Under the pieces are notes generated by a model that saw nothing but the letters and a program-made list of their open reading frames with translations, made no database searches and was not told where the DNA came from. Shown piece by piece: positions 20,974 to 63,915 of a stretch of DNA of 64,000 nucleotides. Every line of letters starts with the position of its first letter. The stretch's first letter is position 1. Position numbers and translations under genes: made by a program. The DNA comes from Hyphomicrobiales bacterium (GTDB lineage: Bacteria > Pseudomonadota > Alphaproteobacteria > Rhizobiales > Rhizobiaceae), in the NCBI GenBank assembly GCA_900466875.1, contig UBNQ01000037.1:21019-85018 (forward strand), read 5' to 3'.

Positions 20974-21194
20974 AAAAGCAGCGACCTGTCAACGCTGCGT
21001 CATCCACCCAACATTGAGCGCGTTAAAACAATCAACTTTAGGTAAGGACTTGTTGAAGTTAACCGCCCCTTTTGATGGTCCCGATAAAGAGATCATGCTA
21101 TCACTTGCCGAAATGCCGGATGAGGCAGGAACCAAATCCCGGATCGGACGTTACCGCGCGCCGAACTGACGATAGTCGTGGTTCGAGGGGGAAC

Positions 21195-30946: not shown

Positions 30947-31453
30947 TCAGCCCGCTTCCTCCCCAAGTTCCTGCAGAATCTGGTGGCGCGCCCGGTTGAG
31001 CCGGCTCTTCACCGTGCCCACCGCGCAATCGCAGATGACAGCCGTCGCCTCGTAACTTTCCCCGAGGATCGCCACCAGCGTCAGCACCTCGCGGTAATGC
31101 GGCGGAAGCTTCTGCAACGCGCGCTGCACCTCGCGTGCCCGTGCTGCCATCTCTTGGGATGCTGCAATCGGCGTATCGCCCGAGACGTTTTCCTCCAGGC
31201 CCGGCGCTTCGCGACCGAGAATTTTGGAGCGTGTATAGAAGGTGTTGCGCATGATCGTGAAAAGCCACGACTTGAGCTTCGTGCCGCGCTCGAACTTGTC
31301 GAGATTGGCGAGCGCCTTCATCAAGGTTTCCTGCACCAGATCGTCCGCATCCGAAGGGTTGCGGCAGAAGGTTCGGGCAAATGCGCGAAGAGCCGGTATC
31401 AGCCTGACGATATCTTGACGAGCAGGGTCACCGTTCAACTGTGGGTCAGACAC
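30947..31453 (-). CDS. EcfG-like ECF sigma factor
   Basis: RNA polymerase sigma factor of 168 residues of the general-stress (EcfG/ECF15) type. Region 2 reads ADDLVQETLMKAL and KSWLFTIMRNTFYTR; region 4 reads AVGTVKSRLNRARHQIL. The start is a GTG at 31453 with a GGAGAGG ribosome binding site. A perfect GGAAC-N17-CGTT promoter lies 48 bases upstream on the same strand, implying autoregulation. sodC follows directly, and a NepR-like gene sits 600 bases to the right. No PhyR-type response regulator is in the window, so this may be a secondary EcfG paralogue; that is inference. Confidence 0.88.
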   Translation of the reverse strand: MSDPQLNGDPARQDIVRLIPALRAFARTFCRNPSDADDLVQETLMKALANLDKFERGTKLKSWLFTIMRNTFYTRSKILGREAPGLEENVSGDTPIAASQEMAARAREVQRALQKLPPHYREVLTLVAILGESYEATAVICDCAVGTVKSRLNRARHQILQELGEEAG

Positions 31454-31500
31454 CGTTGTCTACCTCTCCTTACTCTTCATGGCTGAATTGACGGGTGGCA

Positions 31501-31526
31501 AACGCATGCATTCGCGATTTGGTTCC
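31501..31526 (-). promoter_or_regulatory. EcfG-type promoter of the sigma factor gene (exact)
   Basis: On the minus strand GGAAC (31526-31522), a 17-base spacer and CGTT (31504-31501). It matches the general-stress consensus GGAAC-N16/17-CGTT exactly and faces the sigma factor start at 31453. Confidence 0.85.
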
Positions 31527-31555
31527 GAAAACCCGAGCCCCCATTTCATCCACTC

Positions 31556-31581
31556 GGAACAAAGGCTGTGAGCCACCCGTT
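31556..31581 (+). promoter_or_regulatory. EcfG-type promoter of the small acidic protein gene (exact)
   Basis: GGAAC (31556-31560), a 17-base spacer and CGTT (31578-31581), 39 bases before the ATG at 31621. It is arranged back to back with the sigma factor promoter, 30 bases apart. Confidence 0.85.
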
Positions 31582-38954: not shown

Positions 38955-38980
38955 GGAACGAGATTGCCGACAGGATCGTT
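38955..38980 (+). promoter_or_regulatory. EcfG-type promoter (exact)
   Basis: GGAAC (38955-38959), 17-base spacer and CGTT (38977-38980), 51 bases before the ATG at 39032. Confidence 0.85.
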
Positions 38981-39031: not shown

Positions 39032-39295
39032 ATGACATCTCTCACCCCTCAGGAACTCGAAGGACGGCTCAATGCCCATCGCGAACTGATGATCGAAATG
39101 CTCTCGGCCATGATCGGCGGAGAGGTGACGATCACCAGCTTCCTCAGAAAATTGCGGGACGACGCGACCTTCAAGGACCATGAGGAAGATCCCGGCGTGA
39201 TGCCGGAAGCGGCCTTTGCGATCGAAAACGCAGCCGCTCGGGAAATCCGCGCCATTCTGGAAGCGGCACGGGCAAGAGCTTCGGCCACCGGTTAA
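39032..39295 (+). CDS. small helical stress protein
   Basis: Protein of 87 residues, predicted mainly helical, with no signal or membrane segment. No named family is recognised; MIEMLSAMIGGEVTITSFLR and EDPGVMPEAAFAIENAAARE are the most distinctive parts. A strong AGGAGG lies eight bases before the ATG, and an exact EcfG-type promoter precedes it. It is divergent from glgX. Confidence 0.85.
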   Translation: MTSLTPQELEGRLNAHRELMIEMLSAMIGGEVTITSFLRKLRDDATFKDHEEDPGVMPEAAFAIENAAAREIRAILEAARARASATG

Positions 39296-39332
39296 TGGAA
39301 TCACGCCTTATTTTAGGGCTTATTTACATTTG

Positions 39333-39346
39333 TGGCAGGCCTGCCA
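39333..39346. other. perfect 14-base palindrome TGGCAGGCCTGCCA
   Basis: Self-complementary over all 14 bases, located 38 bases after the stop at 39295 and 18 bases before the -35 element of the next EcfG-type promoter. It may be a protein-binding site or a short hairpin. Confidence 0.4.
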
Positions 39347-39364
39347 TGTTTATGGCGATTTCAT

Positions 39365-39390
39365 GGAACTACAATGGCGCCAGCAACGTT
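39365..39390 (+). promoter_or_regulatory. EcfG-type promoter of the 25-residue membrane protein (exact)
   Basis: GGAAC (39365-39369), 17-base spacer and CGTT (39387-39390), 28 bases before the ATG at 39419. Confidence 0.85.
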
Positions 39391-39418
39391 CTGGGTCCAG
39401 AGTTCGATGGAGGCGGCA

Positions 39419-39496
39419 ATGGTCAGGGAATGGTTTGAAGTGGCAGGTTTCGCGCTGGTGATAGCCGCCTGCTACATGTTCGTTATTCCGGTTTAA
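39419..39496 (+). CDS. 25-residue single-span membrane microprotein
   Basis: Very short gene: the protein begins MVREWFEV and continues with about 17 hydrophobic residues (AGFALVIAACYMFVIP) to a TAA stop. The ATG at 39419 has GGAGG five bases upstream; an in-frame ATG at 39407 is possible (29 residues) but has no such site. The exact EcfG-type promoter 28 bases upstream and a terminator shortly after make a complete minimal transcription unit. The product should be an inner-membrane microprotein with a short charged cytoplasmic end. It may regulate a larger membrane protein, as other bacterial microproteins do, or act in envelope stress; that is inference. Confidence 0.65.
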   Translation: MVREWFEVAGFALVIAACYMFVIPV

Positions 39497-39539
39497 AGTT
39501 TCCCGAGGAGGGGAATGAGGCCTCGACAAAAGAGGCCCC

Positions 39540-39577
39540 ATGCTCTCGTGGCCAATGGCTGCGAGAGCATCATCTTT
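39540..39577 (+). terminator. probable intrinsic terminator after the microprotein gene
   Basis: ATGCTCTCG (39540-39548) pairs perfectly with CGAGAGCAT (39562-39570) and is followed by CATCTTTTG. A shorter GGCCTC/GAGGCC hairpin lies just before it (39519-39537). Confidence 0.65.
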
Positions 39578-39710: not shown

Positions 39711-39908
39711 ATGCAGCACTTTTTCGCAATGCTCAGGAACCGTTTTTTATCCCGCCGGGAGCAACCGACGTTTCAAGCGGCGCGTCCCGAAGAGATTCAG
39801 GTCGTGGTGCCGGGTGCCGTCGTGCTTCCGCTTCCCAAGACCCAGCGGGATGAAATCAGCGTACCGGCATCGATCAACGGGCGCGATCTGTCTACCGGTC
39901 GGCTCTGA
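39711..39908 (+). CDS. small hypothetical protein upstream of pfpI
   Basis: Protein of 65 residues, no family recognised. The N-terminus is basic and aromatic (MQHFFAMLRNRFLSRRE), possibly an amphipathic membrane-binding helix, and the rest is a Pro/Val-rich extended segment. GGGAG lies seven bases before the ATG. It precedes the PfpI gene by 49 bases and probably shares its transcript. Confidence 0.7.
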   Translation: MQHFFAMLRNRFLSRREQPTFQAARPEEIQVVVPGAVVLPLPKTQRDEISVPASINGRDLSTGRL

Positions 39909-41740: not shown

Positions 41741-41802
41741 GAGCGCTAGAACGGCGGCGGGTTATGCTTCGTTCCTGCGCCGACCGATCAAATCGTCACC
41801 AG

Positions 41803-63831: not shown

Positions 63832-63915
63832 CCCGGGTAAGGTTATGCGCAATGGTCTCGCGACCGTCGCGGTCGCGGGAACAAAATCCGAAATCTCGGC
63901 GTTCATCCGTCAGAT

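Follow-up and report, generated by a model that had tools for sequence, protein, structure and literature searches.

A conserved 25-residue predicted membrane microprotein behind an EcfG-type promoter in one genus of Rhizobiaceae

A gene of only 25 codons (39419–39496, plus strand) in the 64,000-nucleotide stretch of DNA that was analysed (the window) encodes a predicted single-pass membrane microprotein, MVREWFEVAGFALVIAACYMFVIPV, and the pattern of codon changes across relatives indicates that selection acts on it as a protein. Conservation is the decisive test here, because any single match to the promoter motif is weak evidence; since the promoter, the ribosome site, the length and the residues are each conserved, this is a well-founded microprotein candidate. 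We hold, with a little better than even confidence, that the product is a membrane microprotein of the stress regulon, which would act through contacts in the membrane and whose gene would form a one-gene general-stress transcription unit.

In the window, the gene order is glgA and then glgX (opposite strand), which we take to be these genes from their translations, an 87-residue gene, the microprotein gene, a 65-residue gene and a PfpI/DJ-1 protein. The microprotein gene is preceded by an EcfG-type promoter, GGAAC-N17-CGTT (39365–39390, plus strand), and by a Shine–Dalgarno site GGAGG (39409–39413, plus strand) five bases 5′ of the ATG, and three hairpins follow the stop codon. A preliminary description, made from this DNA alone, had placed a GGAGG site, a 25-codon frame and a terminator together with the promoter within about 210 bases; the span from promoter to hairpin measures 206 bases in the window, and the frame recurs in every genome read, with an ATG start, a Shine–Dalgarno-like site and exactly 25 codons in 55/55 genomes. 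A GTG start occurs in one locus (L086) outside this 55-genome set. We also considered a 29-residue form starting from an in-frame ATG 12 bases upstream and set it aside; it is missing in some relatives (e.g., L008, L011, L016).

A search with a peptide profile finds the frame in 55 of the 57 genomes of the window's GTDB genus, with a single match per genome, and one locus per genome was read for the 55 genomes carrying it. These hold 37 distinct microprotein sequences, in all of which M1, W5, E7, A9, C18 and P24 are invariant, while position 3 is always R or K and position 4 always E or D. Since W5, E7, A9, C18 and P24 do not vary across 37 distinct proteins, specific side chains are kept, beyond hydrophobicity as such. 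Over the 37 distinct coding sequences, taken from 40 distinct loci, entropy at codon positions 1, 2 and 3 is 0.43, 0.16 and 1.10, and the pooled dN/dS is 0.121, a value we treat as descriptive because the sequence pairs are not independent. For a random subset of 20 sequences, pN/pS is 0.20; over 200 column shuffles the mean is 0.86 and the minimum 0.41, and none of them (0/200) came as low as the observed ratio. Within the window's clade, 6 distinct coding sequences all encode the same peptide; a pair of them differs on average at 5.0 synonymous sites and at 0 nonsynonymous ones. Conservation of the frame in relatives, the absence of which had been named beforehand as refuting the gene, is therefore what is found (55/57 genus genomes, dN/dS ≈ 0.12). 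In 64 kb, chance could place a short hydrophobic frame close to an EcfG-like site, and the conservation would then be that of the DNA only; the codon-position pattern, the dN/dS, the failure of any shuffle of the 20-sequence subset to come as low and the identical frame length in 55/55 genomes leave a chance frame scarcely credible, and contradict it already as far as sequence can.

Of the two genus genomes without a match, G024 has glgX, but the 9.4 kb read ahead of that gene lacks the frame and contains one near-match promoter (ending TGTT) and no exact one; the other, G006, is uninformative because its contig starts 556 bases before glgX and the expected site is cut off. A pattern scan of one genome per species over 84,980 species returned 85 stretches, of which 37 were confirmed; these carry the titles Neorhizobium, Rhizobium, Pseudorhizobium, Xaviernesmea, Aliirhizobium or “Rhizobiales bacterium,” and several of them are identical here to loci of genomes of the window's genus, which puts the window among these organisms. 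The peptide profile covers the window's own family, and the scan of 84,980 species reaches other families for close relatives only.

The promoter is conserved almost as strictly as the frame. GGAAC-N16/17-CGTT lies upstream of the gene in 54/55 genomes, with a spacer of 16 in 40 and of 17 in 14, the window included, and in each it is plausibly spaced from the ATG: the motif starts 51–55 bases ahead of it in 51 genomes, 66 in two and 73 in one. In the remaining genome (L149), GGAAC and the gene are kept and the exact CGTT is absent. A spacer of 17 is also allowed in the EcfG-type motif. The window as a whole holds seven GGAAC-N16/17-CGTT sites, six of them with N17, against 1.12 expected, a number reached in 0/100 shuffles. 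Reported for EcfG of R. etli is GGAAC-N16-CGTT (PMC3892343), so the likeness to that regulon lies in a shared promoter type and the difference in the spacer, which is 17 in the window although 16 in 40 of the 54 genomes. The “exact EcfG promoter” of the preliminary description thus holds for the motif, which is present here and in 54/55 genomes, and has to be qualified for the spacer, 17 in the window against the published 16 (PMC3892343). Matches in 54/55 genomes at a nearly fixed position strengthen the assignment as a stress promoter, which we regard as supported, and membership of the general stress regulon is predicted from the promoter only.

Other sites of this type in the window lie near genes of several kinds. 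An ECF sigma factor gene (30947–31581, minus strand), about 8 kb from the microprotein gene, has its own GGAAC-N17-CGTT, and its product matches Pfam Sigma70 regions 2 and 4 as well as the PhyR sigma2 model, so that it is possibly a second EcfG-type sigma factor. A second GGAAC-N17-CGTT near this gene points in the opposite direction, towards a frame of 68 residues for which Pfam gives no match, and a Cu/Zn superoxide dismutase gene adjoins the sigma factor gene. Further GGAAC-N16/17-CGTT sites are found at 21128–21152, before a gene resembling a PAS/histidine kinase by eye, at 41750–41775, nine bases 5′ of a type IB topoisomerase frame, and at 63878–63903, near the right end of the window.

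Alignment of 40 distinct loci across genomes brings out a second upstream element (39326–39356, plus strand) with two boxes ending in TGGC, at 39333–39336 and 39353–39356 in the window. The proximal TGGC lies 8 bases upstream of the −35 GGAAC (TGGC-N8-GGAAC) in 47/55 genomes, and.GGC is found at the register of the first, distal box in 39/55; the boxes are 20 bases apart. Their separation by two helical turns, in phase with the −35, suggests a regulator bound beside the polymerase; the paired GGC boxes are a possible, putative binding site for a further regulator. The proximal box was dropped as a regulon-wide site: with up to one mismatch it matches 31 places in the window's genome, whereas a reversed control matches 48, which is no enrichment. 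Box and promoter combined, with up to two mismatches in four genomes, find the gene's own promoter in three and one other place; the pattern matched nothing in the window's genome because its 16-base spacer is unsuited there. Overlapping the distal box is a perfect 14-base palindrome, TGGCAGGCCTGCCA (39333–39346, no strand), which the preliminary description had pointed out just upstream of the promoter. It is exact and correctly placed, but no role for it is supported, since it occurs in 1/55 genomes (any perfect palindrome of at least 12 bases in 3/55); we have rejected it as a functional site, and from this comparison it is a local peculiarity of this genome.

Downstream of the stop codon, the window's clade has three hairpins on the plus strand. 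The first (39498–39516, 7 pairs) is drawn from the sequence and from folds of 24 chosen loci, the second (39519–39537, GGCCTC...GAGGCC) from the sequence and folds of 6 loci of the window's clade, and the third (39540–39570, 14 pairs, 8 of them G–C) is followed by CATCATCTTTTGT. Hairpins 1 and 3 have counterparts in 24 aligned loci (chosen out of 40), and in many relatives a hairpin CTCCTGRGGAGGAG takes the place of the first. The third, with its short T tract, is a probable terminator in the window, where the cytochrome c gene discussed below is absent. As a hairpin, the terminator of the preliminary description is real; as a terminator it is moderately convincing, for the T tract is short, terminator-like sites in this stretch are at about chance level (2 found, 1.4 expected) and hairpin 3 of many relatives extends into the last codons or 3′ end of a convergent cytochrome c gene.

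Such stable 3′ hairpins, present in the 24 chosen loci, would suit a transcript that is mainly a regulatory RNA, with the peptide secondary or a leader. We consider this quite improbable, given that the dN/dS of 0.12 and the invariant residues show selection on the peptide, that inspection by eye shows no hairpin 1 in divergent members retaining the peptide (e.g., L018–L021) and that the covariation term is near zero or unfavourable in all three hairpin alignments. No Rfam family was found; a known RNA at the locus was discarded, as the only two Rfam matches lie far below their cut-offs. A leader peptide is furthermore unlikely in the 19 of 36 loci showing cytochrome c, because the downstream neighbour is convergent there.

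The microprotein itself consists of a short charged start and one hydrophobic stretch of about 18 residues. Its best 17-residue Kyte–Doolittle mean is 2.2–2.6 (four peptides computed) and its hydrophobic moment over residues 8–25 is 0.02–0.11 (five peptides computed). The very low moment implies that it is not an amphipathic membrane-lytic helix, and both measures fit a single non-amphipathic helix, in keeping with the one hydrophobic helix predicted in the preliminary description. Small membrane proteins induced by stress, which are a kind of protein and not a homology family, have fewer than 50 residues, one hydrophobic helix and a gene of their own, as is predicted here, with 25 residues in 55/55 genomes and hydropathy for four peptides. 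Searches for a family gave nothing above threshold: Pfam has no family for two members; in NCBIfam the best match of the window's peptide is daptide_123 (E = 0.043, 13.6 bits, under the cut-off of 25), with none for two further peptides; and the profile matches no PDB chain sequence, so that a PDB relative was rejected. As far as the literature was searched, three stretches of the family consensus occur in no paper, and the papers found on EcfG with small membrane proteins, on the R. etli EcfG regulon, on RpoE2 small proteins and on small proteins of S. meliloti and Neorhizobium showed no evident description of the microprotein. From its sequence it looks like one of the stress-linked membrane microproteins, with no named family found.

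A short hydrophobic peptide with a structured message and a stress-type promoter might also be the membrane toxin of a type I toxin–antitoxin pair, which we think very improbable. The gene is not patchy, with one match each in 55/57 genomes and the same neighbours nearly throughout; plasmid carriage was dismissed when one family member, queried against 72,556 plasmid records, gave zero matches; the helix is not amphipathic; and the window's sole sigma-70-like minus-strand site points away from the gene (minus-strand promoter-like sites at the locus: 1 found against 0.4 expected, in the window only).

The neighbours are indeed nearly constant. In the stretches fetched for the 55 genomes, the 87-residue gene, the 65-residue gene and glgX are each found in 54 and the PfpI/DJ-1 gene in 53, counts in which a gene lying beyond the fetched stretch may be missed. 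The 87-residue gene (39032–39295) has its own GGAAC-N17-CGTT at 38955–38980 and the 65-residue gene (39711–39908) a near-match promoter ending in TGTT; for neither is there a Pfam or NCBIfam match.

In part of the genus, an operon of cytochrome c, CtaG-type, COX1 and COX2 genes lies between the microprotein and 65-residue genes (e.g., L144:7205–12886); it is absent or partial in other genomes. Within the fetched stretches, COX1 and COX2 are found in 25/55, the CtaG-type factor in 26/55 and cytochrome c in 33/55, and the cytochrome c gene is convergent, ending 74–138 bases from the ATG in the 19 loci with coordinates. This proximity, and the small membrane proteins known to stabilise terminal oxidases (PMC12719787), would fit a microprotein that belongs to a respiratory complex as an accessory subunit or helps in its assembly, this complex having at first been the adjacent cytochrome oxidase. 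We now judge this improbable and have given it up as the leading idea. The microprotein is kept where the stretch has no COX1 (30/55) or no cytochrome c (22/55), the window included, and this persistence where oxidase genes are absent makes a role tied to the neighbouring oxidase unlikely; it lies on the opposite strand and has its own promoter, and its profile matches no PDB chain sequence. An oxidase subunit would be expected to be encoded with or beside the oxidase genes, and COX1 and COX2 lie in the fetched stretch in only 25/55.

For the stress-regulon membrane microprotein that we favour, the following course of events may be envisaged. Under stress, sigma EcfG would transcribe the one-gene unit as a short message, perhaps under modulation by another regulator at the paired GGC boxes, and translation of this message would give the 25-residue peptide. 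The peptide is expected to insert in the inner membrane as one short helix, from about residue 8 to 25, with the short charged N-terminus probably cytoplasmic (N-in is a guess). There it would pack against a membrane protein or against itself, with W5, E7 and A9 near one end and C18 and P24 near the other, and such packing may tune, under stress, a membrane complex already in place or the state of the membrane itself. That the length is strictly kept and that W, E, A, C and P never vary leads us to favour a specific contact over a general effect on the bilayer. Several points speak against this reading: the constant neighbours belong to families of soluble enzymes (glgX, PfpI) or match no family, about 18 hydrophobic residues are short for a membrane span, and the narrow distribution, the genome G024 with glgX and no frame, the missing exact CGTT in L149 and the window's spacer of 17 count against it as well.

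The closest parallel by description is YohP of E. coli, a 27-residue protein reported to lower membrane potential or fluidity and to slow metabolism (PMC12719787). Like the predicted microprotein, YohP is a small membrane protein of fewer than 30 residues, and its production is linked to starvation and stress (PMC12719787); unlike it, YohP comes from another bacterial class, whereas the window's microprotein has an EcfG-type promoter and the invariant W, E, C and P, and YohP is reported mainly N-out (PMC12719787), against the N-in guessed here. By analogy, the peptide might act on the lipid bilayer itself, lowering membrane potential or fluidity and so slowing metabolism; the shared size class and presumed stress control (PMC12719787), a single-copy gene with its own promoter and the lack of an evident membrane-protein neighbour agree with this. 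It seems to us rather unlikely, as the invariance of W5, E7, C18 and P24 in 37 distinct proteins is more than such an action would seem to need, the C-terminal end has no positive charge and the very low hydrophobic moment is unlike that of an amphipathic pore former. The contact reading finds its likeness in MgtS, AcrZ and MgrB, in which a helix binds and tunes a membrane protein (PMC12719787), and in the oxidase-linked CydX and CcoM (PMC4325964, PMC10433244), which illustrate the mode of action expected here; unlike all of these, the microprotein has no Pfam, NCBIfam or PDB-sequence match. Within the Rhizobiaceae, small unannotated membrane proteins have been validated in S. meliloti, among them SEP6 and SEP16 from ribosome profiling, which we liken to the microprotein by description (PMC10117765); the main text of that paper does not contain “25 aa,” “RpoE2” or “Neorhizobium.”

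Beyond the genus, there may be one relative. When the profile was run against 297 and then 394 genomes of the family, the matches outside the genus were only weak ones (best E = 0.008 and 0.002). Ten such genomes matched at E ≤ 0.05 in the 394-genome search, eight of them (including G236) followed up in one screen and two loci (L036, L037) by a somewhat different one; promoter and frame occur together in one, G236, and not in the other nine, and the second screen over other loci (L026–L050) gave no positive. G236 (E = 0.029) has a 25-codon frame, MTNDYWQPVALMLVAASCYFMIIPL, behind GGAAC-N16-CGTT and GGAGGAG, and all three genomes examined of its genus (g130) carry such a 25-codon frame with an exact promoter. 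A DNA motif for C-Y-x-x-[VI]-[VI]-P-x-stop is found in 13 of the 394 family genomes against 1 for the reversed control; eight of the 13 belong to the window's genus, three to g130, and two are places without promoter or frame. The terminal-motif matches L251 and L263, in other genera, were discarded, as they lack both the promoter and the frame. Two results speak against common descent: a search with the g130 peptide recovers the true places of the window's genus at no better than E = 0.2–0.9, in 4 of 8 genomes, with no match in the window's genome, and the g130 frame sits at a different locus. Because length, C18, Y19, P24 and promoter type are the same, the g130 peptide may be a diverged relative by common descent, which from these sequences is plausible, not proven.

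At the three g130 loci (L221, L222, L223), a second small open frame follows the 25-residue frame after about ten bases and resembles another single-helix membrane protein. The one in L223 has 56 codons and matches nothing in Pfam or NCBIfam. Downstream of 20 homologues of the 87-residue gene in other genera (L201–L220), no promoter with a small hydrophobic frame was found.

As a distinctly tentative proposal, these peptides may represent a new family of general-stress effectors: inner-membrane peptides of a fixed 25 residues, with input from EcfG and the GGC boxes, at different loci in at least two genera of Rhizobiaceae, in which the invariant membrane cysteine C18 and the terminal P24 would serve to bind a single membrane target and to switch it, possibly depending on thiol chemistry or redox state. 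As far as found, the microprotein is restricted to one GTDB genus and a weakly supported relative in a second, so it does not belong to the core of the stress response in alphaproteobacteria. Common gene finders miss frames this short, and alphaproteobacterial stress regulons have for this reason probably been catalogued without their smallest members. A known stress promoter, taken together with conservation of the frame, can reveal microproteins of fewer than 30 codons.
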